Assembly: GCA_903838125.1 (NCBI GenBank)
Contig: CAILXF010000004.1
Span: 1-38,510, forward strand
From: an uncultured Pseudomonadota bacterium
GTDB taxonomy: Bacteria > Pseudomonadota > Gammaproteobacteria > Burkholderiales > Methylophilaceae
Length of the DNA stretch: 38,510 bases
Direction of reading: 5' to 3'
The notes below the pieces were generated by a model. That model was given only the letters and a program-made list of their open reading frames with translations. It was not told the origin of the DNA and did no database searches. Both the position numbers and the translations under genes were made by a program. Shown piece after piece: positions 32,209-38,510 of the stretch. Within the stretch, counting starts at the first letter, position 1. Each line of letters starts with the position of its first letter.

Positions 32209-32282
32209 GCGGGTGTAGTTCAATGGTAGAACGCTAGCTTCCCAAGCTCGATACGCGGGTTCGATTCCCGTCACCCGCTCCA
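32209..32282 (+). tRNA. tRNA-Gly, anticodon CCC
   Basis: This 74-nt tRNA has an encoded CCA end. The acceptor GCGGGTG pairs with CACCCGC, the D stem GTTC with GAAC, and the T stem GCGGG with CCCGT (one G-U). The anticodon loop TTCCCAA reads CCC (32241-32243). It is very close to E. coli glyU. The anticodon stem CTAGC/GCTCG has one mismatch, T28 (32235) against C42 (32249), which fits a 3' half replaced by the integrated element. It reads GGG codons. Confidence 0.95.
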
Positions 32283-32429
32283 GTTGATGCAATCATAATT
32301 AACGGTAGTCAATCACAAATCCCCTGTCAAGGTCTTTGCAGTCAACTAAATCAATGGTTTAAGTTGAATTCAGTTCTTGCCTAAACGTCATAGCTCCCCA
32401 AATAACTTGTGTAACTTGGTACAAAAATA

Positions 32430-32465: not shown

Positions 32466-33698
32466 TTGGATTGTCTTGTGGCGAAACTTGGTTCTAACTT
32501 ATTGGATGACTTAACCATCAAGGCAGCAAAGCCTTCAGATAAGCCTAACCCCCTTAGGGATGGAGGTGGTTTATACCTTTTGGTTAATGGGAATGGTAGT
32601 AAATATTTCCAACTGAGGGCAACCCTTCATGGAAAGCGTAAGCTAATACAGCTTGGGGTTTATCCTAAGATAACATTGGCAGACGCTCGTGCTATGGCAA
32701 GAGACATGCTTTCTCAAATTAAAACTAATGTAGACCCTGTGTTGCTACGTAAGAAGACAAAGTTAGGGAAAGCGATTGATGCTGATAATACATTCCAGAA
32801 AGTAGCTTCTGATTGGTTGTTAATCAAAGGCAGGTCATTGGCCAAGTCTAGTCATAAGAAGATTCAGCAAACATTCAATGCAAACGTCTTTGGGATGATA
32901 GGAAAATATCCAATTAAAGATGTTGATAATGTAATGGTTAGAAATTGCCTGTTAGTGATGCAGAAGCGTGGGTCATTGGAGTTGATGGAGCAGACAAGGT
33001 CATGGATTAAGGCGGTGTTTGACTTTGCATTTGCTGACGGCTTATTACTGGAGAATCCTATCCCAGTTAAAGACATTAGACTGGAAGTTGCCGTTAGTAA
33101 GGGTTATCCACATCTTAAATCACTAGCTGATGCAGGCACTTTCCTTCGTAATCTCGCTAAGTATAGGGGGAGTTTTGAAGTCGCTACCTGTACATACTTG
33201 TGCCTTCATTTAGCACAACGACCAACGGAGCTAAGAGATGCTAAGTGGGTTGAGTTTGACTTGGATAATAGTTTGTGGACGCTACCTTTAGAAAGGTCAA
33301 AGACTCGTAAGCGCATGGCTAAAGCTCACACTATTGTTCTGTCTAGACAAGTCATAGCGAGATTGCGAGAGTTACAAGTATATTCAGGTCATAGTGAGTA
33401 TTTATTTCCTAGCCGAGTTAAGGATAAAGCCTTATCGGAAGCAACAATCCGCAAGTGCTTTAGAGCTGTTTTTACTAAATATCACACAGTACCGCATGGA
33501 TGCAGGCATTTCTTCATAACACAGACTAACGAGAGCTTATTGTTTAACCGAGATGTGATTGAGGTTGCCGTTTCTCATGGCGATAAAGATAGGGTTAGGG
33601 CTACATACAACTTTGCTACTTATGAAGATGAGCGCAGGAGATTGTTTCAATGGTGGAGTGACCAACTAGAGGGAGCAAAGGAAACTGGCAATAGCTAA
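32466..33698 (+). CDS. int: P4-type tyrosine recombinase/integrase
   Basis: The integrase catalyses site-specific integration and excision, here into tRNA-Gly. The 410-residue protein has the N-terminal DUF4102 arm-binding domain (about 10-95; LRDGGGLYLLV, LGVYPKITLADAR), a SAM-like core-binding domain (about 105-200) and the catalytic domain with Arg252 (QRPTELRDAKW), His344-x-x-Arg347 (HGCRHFF), His371 and nucleophile Tyr381 (VRATYNFATY). All catalytic residues are intact, so it is probably active. The start is TTG 32466 or GTG 32478; neither has a clear Shine-Dalgarno. Confidence 0.95.
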   Translation: MDCLVAKLGSNLLDDLTIKAAKPSDKPNPLRDGGGLYLLVNGNGSKYFQLRATLHGKRKLIQLGVYPKITLADARAMARDMLSQIKTNVDPVLLRKKTKLGKAIDADNTFQKVASDWLLIKGRSLAKSSHKKIQQTFNANVFGMIGKYPIKDVDNVMVRNCLLVMQKRGSLELMEQTRSWIKAVFDFAFADGLLLENPIPVKDIRLEVAVSKGYPHLKSLADAGTFLRNLAKYRGSFEVATCTYLCLHLAQRPTELRDAKWVEFDLDNSLWTLPLERSKTRKRMAKAHTIVLSRQVIARLRELQVYSGHSEYLFPSRVKDKALSEATIRKCFRAVFTKYHTVPHGCRHFFITQTNESLLFNRDVIEVAVSHGDKDRVRATYNFATYEDERRRLFQWWSDQLEGAKETGNS

Positions 33699-33919: not shown

Positions 33920-34015
33920 GTGAGGTATAGATTTACCTCACAAGTGCTAGCGACTGTTCTTGGTTGCAAATCAACATCCGTAAATACTTAAAAGCTAGCT
34001 CCAAAAGAGCTGGCT
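33920..34015 (+). promoter_or_regulatory. Structured 5' leader of the primase-helicase mRNA
   Basis: Two hairpins are visible. GTGAGGTA/TACCTCAC (33920-33927, 33934-33941) is an 8-bp stem right at the predicted RNA 5' end. AGCTAGCTC/GAGCTGGCT (33993-34001, 34007-34015) is a 9-bp stem with one G-U and a 5-nt loop. The coding start with its Shine-Dalgarno comes 22 nt or more after the second. The leader has no recognised riboswitch; it could serve RNA stability or attenuation. Confidence 0.5.
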
Positions 34016-34053
34016 ATTGTTATTTATGGTCTCTTAAAAGGAGAAAAGTACAG

Positions 34054-36669
34054 ATGGTTAATTATAAATTAATAACTGCAATTCACATGTCCAATTTGGG
34101 ATTTTCAATCATCCCAATTACAAGCAATAGCAAAATACCCGCAATTAAATACTGGCAACAAAATGCACGTTCATCAAAAGTGCAAATAACTACTTGGGCA
34201 GATGAATTCCCAAACTGTAACTTTGGCATTGCGACTGGTAACGGCCTTGTGGTTTTAGACGTAGATAACAAGAATGGAAAGAATGGCTCTGATGCTTTAT
34301 CTGCAATGGGTCAAATTCCATTGACGTTCACCGTGTCTACACCTTCAGGTGGCTTTCATTATTACTTCAGAACTACTGAAAATCTAAGAAATAGTACGAG
34401 CAAGGAAGGTTTGGATATTAGAGCCGATGGAGGGCTAGTGGTTTGCCCAGGCTCTATTGTTGATGAAAAAGAATACCAAGTAATTAATGATGCACCTCTT
34501 GCAGAACTACCTGAATGGCTCATTGAGAAGCTTGGTTCAACAAAAGCATCCTACCCTGTAGAGATTGAATATCCAGAATCATCACTTGAATGGAATGAAG
34601 AGCAAAGATATGCACTAGAGAGACATTTGTCACTCATAGACCCTGATTTGCCTTACGAGCCTTGGTTAGTCGGGATATATGCAGTCATCAATATATACGG
34701 CAATAACTCCGATGTGTTTGAGTCGCTAAATCAATGGTCGGCTAATGGAGTTAAATATGATGAGGCAGAGTTTTGGAAAAAGATTAAGAGTTACAACCCA
34801 AATCATCCGTACAAAGCTGGATTCACTACTCTGGCTGAAATTAAATGGCAATATCCTAGAAAATCCTCACCTATCTTAAGTAATGCATTTGGAGTGCAGT
34901 TAGAAGCGCCATTGTTTAACAAAGCTGTAGATATTCTTAAGTTGCATGGCAACACGCCATCACCCCAACATGAAAGAGCATTATCAGCCATATGTAAAAC
35001 ACTAGCTAACGGCATAGATAGTGATGAGAAGTTCAGGTTAGCCTTCCCACTTGAAACAGGTATGGGTAAAACCACATGTGTAGTCGCTTTGGCATATGCC
35101 TTGCAACCCTATGACAAAAGTCTTCTCATTTGTGCTGAACGTATTGAACAGTTACAAGAAATGAAGGATGCAATGGTTGAAGCTGGAGTTGATGAATCTA
35201 AGATTGGCATATATCACTCTAAAAAAGATACGGATATTCCTAGCGTAGAATTTAAAGACCTAAAAAGGTGTAAGTTTTTATTAGTAAGCCATGCTCGTGT
35301 AGTTGCCGATAGTAAAAGTGGCAACTGTTCTAATTTGCTTAATTATGAGGGTAGCCCAAGAAGTATGACTATTTGGGATGAAAGCTTGATAACAACAGAG
35401 TCTTTCTATTGCTCTTTGAGTGACATGCGTTGTGCCCTACAAGACTGGATAGCTCGTTTTCAAGAACGTTTGCATATGGGTCAAGCTAGCTTTAAACACA
35501 ATGAAGAATATCATAAGCTACGTTTCTTTTTCATGGAGCTAAAAGATAGCCTTGAGCAGGAAGAGGTTAAAGATGGGATGGTTATCCAACTACCTTATCT
35601 TAGTGCTGGAGGTATTAGCATTGAACTCATTAACACCATAGTGAATAATGAATCCTATAGAAATGCCCTTAGAACCCTGATTAACTTTGTTCAGTTGGGA
35701 GAGGTAAGAATTGTCAAAGTTAAAGATGGCTTTAGTGTGATGCACTTTGCTCCAGTTATTGATGACAGCTTTGACAAGATTGTTGTGATGGATGCTTCAG
35801 CTAGAATTAAGACACTACTGAATTTTGACCAGTCCATTTCAATCAATCATCTTGAGGTTAGCAAGGATTACGCTGATGTGAAGATTTGCCATGCAAACGT
35901 CCAGAGCAGCAAACATAGCTTTAAAGATAAGAATCACTTGAAGAATTATCTACAAGAAATAACTTATTTAATAAACACCAAAATCCCTAAGAATGAAGAG
36001 CTAATAATCTTCTGCCACAAGGAAAATAAGGATGAAATACGTGGTTGGGCTACTAGTGAATACCCTTTACGAACGATTAATGTTCTTAATTGGGGTGAGC
36101 ATAAGGCAACCAATAAATATAAGCATGTAAAGTATGTCATTACCTGTGGGAACATCTATAGAGAGTGGCAGGAAATATCAACTAAAATTATTGGCCAAAC
36201 TCGTACCTTAAATTACACGTTGCTTGATGCTGATGCTAGTGAAACGTTCTACAGCGAACAGGCTGAAATGTTCTATCAAGGATTTAGCAGAGGAAACTGT
36301 AGGAATACTATTGATGGTAAGGCTGGTGAACAAACCATCTACTTATTTCACCCCACACCTGATTATTTAAAGGTAATGGACTCTTTGAGAAAGGTGATGC
36401 CCAACGTTATAGAGGAAACTTATAAACCACAATACCTAACTGAAGGTAGAAAGGATGCTAAGGACCACCAAGAAATAGCCCGTAAGATTACAGACTATCT
36501 AACTTCGTTAGCTTTAGATATGTCAAGGGTCACTAAAACACACCTGTTAAGGTGCATAGCACCTCATCTAAGTAGTAATAGTAAAACTTGGAGAAAGGCA
36601 ATTGACCAAGCACAACAAGACCTGAAAGGGTGGATGTTTAATAGTAAAAAAGTAGAACGTATAATTTAA
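34054..36669 (+). CDS. Prim-Pol primase fused to SF2-like helicase
   Basis: This 871-residue replication protein probably starts replication of the element. The frame is open back to 33964, but AAGGAG (34038-34043) and the domain start favour the ATG at 34054; positions below use this start. An N-terminal bifunctional primase/polymerase domain (about 10-160) has the metal-binding DVDNK (Asp69, Asp71), GGFHYYF (99-105) and DIRADGGLVVCPGS (121-134). A PriCT-like helical region (about 180-265) follows. The rest is helicase-like: Walker A GMGKT (336-340), DExx-box WDES (441-444), IIFCHKE, and the arginine motif QGFSRGNCR (742-750). This looks like superfamily 2 rather than the SF3/D5 helicase usual next to Prim-Pol. 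A long insertion (about 455-570) is unassigned. Confidence 0.85.
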   Translation: MVNYKLITAIHMSNLGFSIIPITSNSKIPAIKYWQQNARSSKVQITTWADEFPNCNFGIATGNGLVVLDVDNKNGKNGSDALSAMGQIPLTFTVSTPSGGFHYYFRTTENLRNSTSKEGLDIRADGGLVVCPGSIVDEKEYQVINDAPLAELPEWLIEKLGSTKASYPVEIEYPESSLEWNEEQRYALERHLSLIDPDLPYEPWLVGIYAVINIYGNNSDVFESLNQWSANGVKYDEAEFWKKIKSYNPNHPYKAGFTTLAEIKWQYPRKSSPILSNAFGVQLEAPLFNKAVDILKLHGNTPSPQHERALSAICKTLANGIDSDEKFRLAFPLETGMGKTTCVVALAYALQPYDKSLLICAERIEQLQEMKDAMVEAGVDESKIGIYHSKKDTDIPSVEFKDLKRCKFLLVSHARVVADSKSGNCSNLLNYEGSPRSMTIWDESLITTESFYCSLSDMRCALQDWIARFQERLHMGQASFKHNEEYHKLRFFFMELKDSLEQEEVKDGMVIQLPYLSAGGISIELINTIVNNESYRNALRTLINFVQLGEVRIVKVKDGFSVMHFAPVIDDSFDKIVVMDASARIKTLLNFDQSISINHLEVSKDYADVKICHANVQSSKHSFKDKNHLKNYLQEITYLINTKIPKNEELIIFCHKENKDEIRGWATSEYPLRTINVLNWGEHKATNKYKHVKYVITCGNIYREWQEISTKIIGQTRTLNYTLLDADASETFYSEQAEMFYQGFSRGNCRNTIDGKAGEQTIYLFHPTPDYLKVMDSLRKVMPNVIEETYKPQYLTEGRKDAKDHQEIARKITDYLTSLALDMSRVTKTHLLRCIAPHLSSNSKTWRKAIDQAQQDLKGWMFNSKKVERII

Positions 36670-36675
36670 TATAAC

Positions 36676-36703
36676 GGGGGCTTTGGGGCCCCCTATTTGT
36701 TTA
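36676..36703 (+). terminator. Terminator after the primase-helicase gene
   Basis: GGGGGC (36676-36681) and GCCCCC (36688-36693) form a stem with a 6-nt loop, followed by TATTTGTTTAT. It is 6 bp behind the stop codon. Confidence 0.75.
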
Positions 36704-36989
36704 TAGCACTTGTGTACCCTTTCTCTAATAGAAGTATATATTAATAGGTACACTTAACTACTAACACCTAACTACTAACACCTAACTACTAACACCGTGT
36801 ATCAATCAATTAGAGCGGTGGTACACACACTCCATACCAATCAAACACTTAAGCCATACAAATATCCCATATATTAATTATAAAATATAAAAATACAGTA
36901 AAAAAGTAGAGCATACTTGACGTGTATCAAAACCATGGCTAGCGGTTAAGAGCACAGTAAAACTTGTTGCTAGATGAAGGAAGATTTCA
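36704..36989. other. Candidate replication origin of the element
   Basis: This gene-free AT-rich region follows the replication gene. It contains three 14-bp iterons (36754-36795), the inverted pair GTGTACC (36712-36718) / GGTACAC (36747-36753), a third GGTACAC (36820-36826), the 10-mer CGTGTATCAA twice (36796-36805, 36921-36930), and a very AT-rich tract at about 36868-36900. Iterons plus an AT-rich unwinding stretch beside the initiator gene is the usual build of a replication origin. It must also hold the promoter of the small genes downstream; TTGACG at 36917 is a weak -35 candidate. Confidence 0.55.
36754..36795 (+). repeat. Three tandem 14-bp iteron-like repeats
   Basis: Three head-to-tail copies of YTAACTACTAACAC start at 36754, 36768 and 36782; only the first base of the first copy differs. 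Each unit contains the sub-repeat TAACTA/CTAACA. Confidence 0.9.
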
Positions 36990-37133
36990 ATGAAAAAACT
37001 ACTATCAATTATTTGCATAATGCTTATTGTTGCGTCCTCAATAGCTGAAGCTGCTAACCGTAAAGGTAGTCATCGTGTTGGTGGATATAACAGTCATGGC
37101 AAAGGCAGTCATTATGTTGGAGGTCATAGATAA
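36990..37133 (+). CDS. Small secreted His/Gly-repeat peptide
   Basis: This 47-residue precursor has a signal peptide (1 to about 22; lysines, then a hydrophobic stretch, cut near AEA/AN) and a mature part of about 25 residues made of two imperfect repeats, KGSHRVGGYNSHG and KGSHYVGGHR. Histidines could bind metal, but the function is unknown. GAAGGAAG lies 6 nt before the ATG. Its TAA overlaps the next ATG by one base (TAATG). Confidence 0.7.
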   Translation: MKKLLSIICIMLIVASSIAEAANRKGSHRVGGYNSHGKGSHYVGGHR

Positions 37134-37399
37134 TGAAAAACCTATTAATCGCACTACTAATGTTTTTATCTTTCAGCGCATTTGCTGACCAATCAACTTG
37201 CGAGCAACTCAAAGCAGACAGCAATACGACTAAAGAGCAATTAGCTCAAAGTGGATGTTGCTCTTGGCATAGTGGTGTTTGTGGATGCTCAGGTGGTGTT
37301 GTGCAATGTTGTGACGGAGCAGCTAGTCCCTCTTGTCGTTGTCATGCAAATGATTTAATAGAACCAAAAGCAGTTGAGTCTGAAATACCTAAAGGTTAA
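37133..37399 (+). CDS. Small Cys-rich secreted protein
   Basis: This 88-residue protein has a signal peptide (1-18, cut after AFA) and a mature core with nine cysteines in a tight block (about 42-70; CCSWHSGVCGCSGGVVQCC, then SPSCRC), plus one near the N-terminus. Similar blocks occur in uncharacterised exported proteins of proteobacterial mobile elements. Disulfide folding by DsbA or metal binding is possible; the function is unknown. It is translationally coupled to the peptide before it. Confidence 0.75.
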   Translation: MKNLLIALLMFLSFSAFADQSTCEQLKADSNTTKEQLAQSGCCSWHSGVCGCSGGVVQCCDGAASPSCRCHANDLIEPKAVESEIPKG

Positions 37400-37406
37400 C
37401 GGTTGT

Positions 37407-37481
37407 ATGCTCATTTACTTTCTACTGATATGGGGTATTGTTTGTTTTGTGAACATTACTATTGAGGAAGAGTCATCATGA
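37407..37481 (+). CDS. Possible 24-residue membrane peptide
   Basis: A mini-ORF codes for MLIYFLLIWGIVCFVNITIE followed by EESS, a single hydrophobic helix with an acidic tail. It starts 7 bp after the previous stop and its TGA overlaps the next ATG (ATGA), exactly as its neighbours do. That fit, more than its composition, supports it as a real coupled gene. Confidence 0.45.
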   Translation: MLIYFLLIWGIVCFVNITIEEESS

Positions 37482-37726
37482 AAATATTAGGATATTTAAT
37501 CCTCATCGCTGCAGGTTTGTTTGGTCTGTTTGCATCTTTATCTATTATTGCCCATGAATTAGGATTTATTGGTGGTTTTATAGCATTTTTATTCTTCCCC
37601 GTTACCCTTGCTTTTGCACCTTGGTACGCAGGATTTGCATATGGGAATTGGCAGTTATTGGGAATAATTTATGGCGGTACGATTGTTGGTTCACTATTAG
37701 TCGGTCTAGGTGACAAAAACAAATGA
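37478..37726 (+). CDS. Small membrane protein
   Basis: This 82-residue protein has probably three membrane segments (about 3-25, 29-50, 57-76), with a short charged C-terminus DKNK. No family is recognised. GAGGAAGAG precedes the ATG. It overlaps the following gene by 4 bp (ATGA). Confidence 0.7.
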   Translation: MKILGYLILIAAGLFGLFASLSIIAHELGFIGGFIAFLFFPVTLAFAPWYAGFAYGNWQLLGIIYGGTIVGSLLVGLGDKNK

Positions 37727-38001
37727 TAAAAATACTTGCATTTCTTGTCCTTATAGCAATATTTCCTCTGCCTTATTCGTATTATGAGGTTCTACGTGTT
37801 GCTGTATGTCTGGGAATAGTTTTCATAGTACTTAAAGAATGGAAGTCGATAGATACAACAACAAAGACAATACTTGCAGTCATCGCAATTTTGTTTAATC
37901 CATTCTCACCAATCTATCTTTCAAAGATGGTATGGGTGGTCATAGATTTGGTTGTTGGACTCTACATGCTGAATTTGAAATTGGATGGAAATAACGAATG
38001 A
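37723..38001 (+). CDS. Small membrane protein, DUF6804-like
   Basis: This 92-residue protein has three hydrophobic segments (about 3-19, 24-40, 48-85). The block ILFNPFSPIYLSKMVWVVID recalls the NP(I/L)xPIxLxxxxWxxID pattern of a family of small membrane proteins (DUF6804) found scattered on bacterial genomes. The function is unknown. It has ATGA overlaps at both ends. Confidence 0.65.
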   Translation: MIKILAFLVLIAIFPLPYSYYEVLRVAVCLGIVFIVLKEWKSIDTTTKTILAVIAILFNPFSPIYLSKMVWVVIDLVVGLYMLNLKLDGNNE

Positions 38002-38510
38002 AAAAACTGATACTAGCAATATTGCTAACAGTCTTGAGCACAAGTGCGATTGCTGAGAAAACAGGAGAGCAGTTATATTCTGAACTTAAATCAAATAGCT
38101 CCTTTGAAAATGCACAAGGAATATCATTCCTTGAAGGTGTTATTGATATGGAAAGTTGGTATGTAACTAAAGAAATATTCAAATCCATAGATTTGGACAA
38201 TCCCAGCAACCCTTCAAAAAAGTTTATTTTTGAGCATTATTGCTTAAATGGAATTACTCTAGGTGAAGTTAAAGATATTGTAGTTGGTTATATGGCCTCC
38301 CACCCTGAAAAGAAAAACCTTCCTGCACACACAGTAATTTGGAGAGCCCTTCTAGAGCAGTTTGATTGTGCAGCTAACCCAAAAACAGACTGGACAATTG
38401 TTTATGGGTCAGTTAACCCAATAACCTACGTTGATTTAGAGTCTATTCAGCGGATTGGCAATAAATCACAAATGACTAATTTAAGAGACTATAAAGATAT
38501 TCAAATTACA
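37998..38510 (+). CDS. Exported Rap1a/Tai-like protein with Adhesin-E-like end (partial)
   Basis: The frame is open for 171 residues and runs off the window, so the end is missing. A signal peptide (1-19, AIA/EK) is followed by a Rap1a/Tai-like domain: GISFLEGVIDM, YCLNGITLGEVKDIVVGYM, then HPEKKNLPAH, ALLEQFDC, with the paired cysteines of that family. After residue 130 comes WTIVYGS...ITYVDLESIQRIGN, which resembles the surface-adhesin E domain. Rap1a proteins include immunity proteins against type VI effectors, but many members have no known role. It starts in the ATGA overlap with the previous gene. Confidence 0.65.
   Translation, partial: MKKLILAILLTVLSTSAIAEKTGEQLYSELKSNSSFENAQGISFLEGVIDMESWYVTKEIFKSIDLDNPSNPSKKFIFEHYCLNGITLGEVKDIVVGYMASHPEKKNLPAHTVIWRALLEQFDCAANPKTDWTIVYGSVNPITYVDLESIQRIGNKSQMTNLRDYKDIQIT

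Follow-up and report, generated by a model that had tools for sequence, protein, structure and literature searches.

A coupled cassette of small exported and membrane proteins on an integrative element in a tRNA-Gly gene, with a possible role in envelope protection

Six coupled genes at the end of a contig from an uncultured Methylophilaceae bacterium form an operon carried as cargo by a small satellite-like or IME-like integrative element that resides in a tRNA-Gly(CCC) gene, as shown by an integrase, a PrimPol-helicase, attachment repeats and an empty site in a related genome. We tentatively favor the view that this operon is exchangeable cargo that protects the cell envelope, and we consider themed, exchangeable cargo a better reading than a fixed six-gene machine. 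The window, that is, the whole stretch of DNA that was analyzed, makes up the entire contig C4, 38,510 nucleotides long, of a draft genome that totals 1.61 Mb in 61 contigs and is 86% complete. The features of the element and its cassette are as follows.

32209-32282, + strand: tRNA-Gly (CCC), the integration target (ARAGORN; Rfam tRNA at 32209-32279)
32262-32308, + strand: left attachment repeat of 47 nt, made up of the tRNA 3' end plus 26 nt
32466-33698, + strand: tyrosine integrase (Pfam Arm-DNA-bind_3, Phage_int_M and Phage_integrase; TTG start called)
33964-36669, + strand: replication protein, a PrimPol with a helicase-like region (Pfam Prim-Pol and ResIII; PHROG primase matches; TTG start called)
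36676-36693, + strand: terminator-like hairpin 3' of the replication gene (consensus scan; three sites in the region versus 1.2 expected)
36750-36796, no strand assigned: iteron-like 14-bp tandem repeat, 3.4 copies, 96% match (Tandem Repeats Finder)
36990-37133, + strand: o47, 47 aa; predicted signal peptide and an exported Gly/His-rich peptide, roughly 26 residues long
37133-37399, + strand: o88, 88 aa, TAATG junction with o47; exported, Cys-rich, a single-lobe relative of Dot/Icm Dis2
37407-37481, + strand: o24, 24 aa, after a 7-bp gap; possible one-helix membrane peptide without family match, doubtful as a gene
37478-37726, + strand: o82, 82 aa, ATGA junction; membrane protein without family
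37723-38001, + strand: o92, 92 aa, ATGA junction; DUF6804 membrane protein (Pfam, 76.3 bits)
37998-38510, + strand: Rap1a-domain protein, at least 171 aa, ATGA junction; exported; Rap1a domain at residues 22-124, extended by additional C-terminal sequence (gene incomplete because C4 ends at 38510)

A first-pass annotation had placed the cassette on a replicating element, and the anatomy of the region bears this out. An identical copy of the 47-nt repeat is found four bases upstream of thiD on a second contig (C37:2188-2234; 100% BLAST identity over the 42 nt searched, 47 nt by count), so that the halves of the repeat sit on two contigs of one draft genome, with the middle of the island unseen. 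In another genome (G182) the site is uninterrupted: luxR, tRNA-Gly and thiD are adjacent, and thiD is 99% identical. The site is used repeatedly by islands, the same tRNA-Gly hosting related integrases in G177 (L152, 64% identity) and G107 (L153, 73% identity). Other genes make up these two islands, in which tblastn found relatives neither of the PrimPol nor of the cargo genes. The PrimPol itself was found in no further genome of 187 from the family at E 1e-20 and in no viral contig; primases of phages and plasmids match it in part. The hairpin and the 14-bp tandem repeats, the latter a possible replication origin, separate the replication gene from the cassette. P4-like satellites and PICMIs resemble this element in integrase, own primase-helicase, small size and variable cargo, whereas here no capsid or helper-hijacking gene is seen and the cargo seen is all envelope-type.

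The six ORFs run in the same direction from 36990 to 38510 on the + strand, joined by TAATG or ATGA overlaps and separated once by 7 bp, exactly as originally annotated. The accompanying claim that every one of them has a signal peptide or membrane helices likewise held up: a simple signal-peptide and hydrophobicity script called all six envelope-type, and all nine cargo ORFs (o24 included) once three genes from C37 were added. The same script made this call for 12 of 27 chromosomal genes hand-picked from the window and, among 94 spurious ORFs that lie within these genes, for 17; at the 12/27 rate, the odds of six out of six would be about 0.008 and those of nine out of nine about 0.0007. A consensus scan revealed no promoter-like sites above chance (three found versus 7.5 expected), PADLOC matched none of ten proteins to an anti-phage system, and no conjugation or secretion family was found among the island proteins scanned. 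Adhesion, one of the functions initially suggested, was dropped; its sole hint was a sub-threshold match to Adhesin_E (15.6 bits versus a cut-off of 23.7), and the sub-threshold family matches of the remaining proteins were treated as chance.

Evidence for exchange comes from C37, which starts inside a partial second copy of o92 that is 97% identical to C4 over 242 bases. The first 119 bases are identical, which looks to us like a branch in the assembly graph. Past the shared ATGA junction, the exported genes on C37 are others, with lengths of 153, 260 and 84 codons; the attachment repeat and thiD come next (C37:1-2234, L005). Either the island has two copies of o92 or the sample has two strains, and in both cases the gene that follows DUF6804 differs from the junction onward. 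The 84-codon gene matches PHROG 33759 (E 3.2e-16) and was found in none of the viral contigs searched. The 260-codon protein has, by eye, a periplasmic ClpP-like look, with a family match that is sub-threshold.

None of our searches turned up the full cassette anywhere else. Two samples, each of 150 family genomes (draws that may differ slightly), contained the o88 family in six genomes and DUF6804 in eight, own genome included, and the own genome was the only one to have both. Two pairs of cargo genes do recur, so the homologues are not, as would have spoken against the original proposal, always apart. Among 114 loci tested by tblastn (94 of them o88 loci), an o47 relative lies beside an 88-type gene once, in G008 (L039, the same place as L025), and a DUF6804 gene lies near an 88-type gene once, in a record from Omnitrophota (L067, 4902-7241). 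In this operon the DUF6804 gene (78.7 bits) shares 4 bp with the gene of a membrane protein of 237 codons; a gene with the 88-type Cys motif follows, and an ORF of 53 codons and a gene for a CAP-domain protein are further members. In addition, 6 of 82 o88 loci (the distinct loci with the motif, out of the 94) have, on the same strand and no more than 700 bases away, an exported protein with GSHxVGG or VxGYxRxxGTYV, and one locus has it further off; the p value of 4e-5 is flattering, because the pattern was chosen after the neighbors had been viewed. The proposal of a fixed joint function for all six genes thus finds no backing: o88 and o92 coincide in the own genome only within the two samples of 150, none of the 186 further genomes among the 187 has a match to o82, and C37 departs from C4 after o92.

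The best single functional clue is that the last gene may encode an orphan immunity protein. Its Rap1a domain scores above the curated Pfam cut-off (46.8 versus 27.7 bits), and the script assigns it a signal peptide. It has two cysteines, Cys82 and Cys124, whose spacing, matched by position only, is much like that of the Cys78-Cys122 disulfide given for Rap1a (PMC3852654). The statement that none of the six has a known role is accordingly in need of amendment for this gene, and it stands for the fifth, DUF6804 being a family of unknown function; immunity against a toxin, another of the options first raised, gains one gene with a predicted immunity-protein domain. The Rap1a family name alone does not prove immunity. 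The protein also matches PHROG 3870, a virus protein family of unknown function (E 9.4e-11); it has a relative in one further genome of the 187, none in the viral contigs, plasmids or phages searched, and no solved structure that matches it by sequence. Tae4 was found in none of the 187 family genomes, the own genome being 86% complete, and VipB, the T6SS sheath protein, in one, not the own genome. Since VipB is absent from the own genome and Tae4 from all 187, any immunity would be orphan, the absence of T6SS genes from the own genome being less than firm because of its incompleteness. The protein is like the Rap1a/Tai4a immunity proteins (PMC3852654) in its Pfam domain, signal peptide and suitably spaced cysteines, and it differs from them in the lack of Tae4 among the 187 genomes, in its further C-terminal stretch and in being island-borne. 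A precedent for orphan immunity is provided by the mobile immunity arrays (acquired interbacterial defense, AID) of Bacteroidales (PMC10470768), in which a mobile immunity-type gene likewise occurs in a host apparently lacking the matching effector or secretion system. Those arrays, from another phylum, have several adjacent immunity genes, whereas here an immunity domain is present in just one of nine cargo ORFs, the rest being small exported or membrane proteins. On a further contig, downstream of the tmRNA gene, we noted a short ORF, some 33 codons long, with a start that over 57 bases shows 78% identity to that of the Rap1a gene (C40:15985-16041; L006, 7986-8094); it may be a relic of the cassette of another island.

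The product of o88 belongs to a family with matches in 121 genome stretches and without a Pfam model. A profile of the family matches both lobes of Dis2 (E 1.5e-8 when built from 52 sequences, 1.5e-5 from four), and the two have in common the motif GCC...HGGV...C...C. In a fold search with a moderate AlphaFold model (pLDDT 72), Dis2 came first among 350,542 chains, weakly so (E 0.75, 33 columns); nothing useful came from a viral fold library. Dis2 (Lpg0823), a component of the Dot/Icm outer-membrane cap, is also disulfide-rich and exported (PMC8486379), but it has two lobes where o88 has one, and no Dot/Icm-type gene was recognized on the island. Nor was one recognized by eye among the neighbors at 90 o88-type loci; a neighbor at L050 is pilin-like. 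Many of these 90 loci have no recognized mobile or defensive neighbor (up to two ORFs per side, read by eye and uncounted). No o88 relative was found in plasmids or, by tblastn at E 0.01 with the low-complexity filter on, in annotated phages. Relatives do occur on viral contigs (L118 and L119), where the o88-type gene is followed by two genes for small membrane proteins and an exported HNH-like gene (in L118 a sub-threshold match, 17.2 bits versus a cut-off of 21.4), with a repressor-like gene, judged by eye, nearby. Exported HNH-like genes, recognized by motif or by sub-threshold Pfam matches, also adjoin o88 relatives in L023 and L038. Separately, exported proteins with a VxGYxRxxGTYVxPH-like motif adjoin 88-type genes in L051, L071, L076, L091 and L127/L128, from unrelated bacteria and one viral contig; four of these proteins were scanned and had no Pfam match.

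The upstream gene, o47, is a conserved peptide that is predicted to be exported. Comparison of its exported part with that of G008 over 27 codons revealed 11 identical codons, 14 synonymous differences and 2 nonsynonymous ones. Relatives were found in three viral contigs, in no further genome of 349 from the order, and in no annotated phage (tblastn, E 0.01, low-complexity filter on). In two of the three viral contigs, which are similar to each other (L166 and L167), the o47 relative overlaps a lipoprotein-like gene by 4 bp. The presence of relatives of both o47 and o88 on viral contigs was counted as support for the interpretation given in the first-pass annotation.

Of the remaining three genes, the shortest, o24, is possibly not a gene, because three family libraries contain nothing that matches it, because tblastn in the fetched loci gave no match outside its own genome, and because no clear ribosome site is seen. 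Its neighbor o82 was found in no further genome of the 187 and in no viral contig, and its one match in plasmids is weak and spans 40 residues. The fifth gene, o92, is assigned to DUF6804 (76.3 bits versus a cut-off of 27); it has no relative in viral contigs and matches in 14 plasmid records, all under 60% identity. DUF6804 relatives adjoin what by eye are efflux-pump-like genes in L027-L029, and in L026 the nearest o92 relative lies about 1.1 kb from an exported SNase gene (97.1 bits).

How, then, might the cassette function? In the reading that we tentatively favor, envelope-protection cargo on a satellite-like island, the Rap1a-domain protein would act as periplasmic orphan immunity against peptidoglycan amidases injected by neighbors, while the disulfide-rich o88, the o47 peptide and the small membrane proteins would modify the envelope or screen it from other invaders, for example phages or competing elements. 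Genes would be traded singly or in pairs at ATGA junctions, and the cassette would therefore be a shifting assortment of genes at a common location, not a fixed machine. The anatomy of the island, the envelope-type call for nine of nine ORFs, the Rap1a domain with its cysteines, the viral-contig relatives of o88 and o47, the mostly synonymous differences of o47 from G008, the exchange at the o92 junction and the recurring pairs argue for envelope protection; against it are the blank PADLOC result for ten proteins, the many o88-type loci where reading by eye recognized no mobile or defensive neighbor, the efflux-like neighbors of DUF6804, the lack of cargo relatives in the G177 and G107 islands and the absence of an above-chance promoter. 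A sizeable part of our doubt attaches to a chance collection, in which unrelated cargo genes, each of some benefit or none, are coupled by compact packing with export as the sole theme. Such a collection, which we regard as quite possible, would be consistent with the failure to find the full set elsewhere in the searches made, with o88 and o92 meeting only in the own genome in the two samples of 150, with the lack of matches to o82 and the PrimPol in any other of 187 family genomes, with the different genes after o92 on C37, and with the missing cargo genes in the related islands at the same tRNA. It sits less well with nine of nine cargo ORFs being envelope-type, with the recurrence of two pairs, and with the six of 82 o88 loci near an o47-like or VxGYxRxxGTYV-type protein (p 4e-5, flattering for a post hoc pattern).

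The viral connections of o47 and o88 bring to mind superinfection exclusion: the genes would form a module of a phage-related element that interferes with how DNA enters across the envelope, and the Rap1a domain would be incidental. The exported HNH-like genes beside o88 relatives (L023/L038 and L118/L119, by motif or sub-threshold) and the SNase gene near an o92 relative point the same way, but relatives of o47 and o88 are absent from the annotated phage collection under the tblastn settings given above and PADLOC yielded no match, and we judge this explanation unlikely. More improbable still is that the genes encode parts of an envelope-spanning machine, in which a Dis2-like o88 would be pinned by disulfides at the outer-membrane side of a secretion complex with the membrane proteins as its partners: the two-lobe profile match and the first, if weak, place of Dis2 in the fold search suggest it, whereas the scanned island proteins include no conjugation or secretion family and the o88 loci, read by eye, have no recognized Dot/Icm-type gene. 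Finally, that several of the ORFs are noise from gene calling is hardly credible; o24, lacking both a match and a clear ribosome site, would fit, but o47, o88, o92 and the Rap1a protein all have conserved relatives, which leaves o24 and, less so, o82 without support.

Envelope-protection cargo may also be looked at more broadly. Somewhat speculatively, and with more doubt than confidence, we propose a class of satellite-like islands in which an integrase and a replicase would drive an operon of solely exported and membrane proteins, exchangeable by swaps at ATGA junctions and serving the host as a tunable periplasmic shield. Its members would include a widespread family of single-lobe Dis2-type disulfide proteins and an exported peptide on which purifying selection acts. 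The element described here may pay its way through protection of the cell surface.
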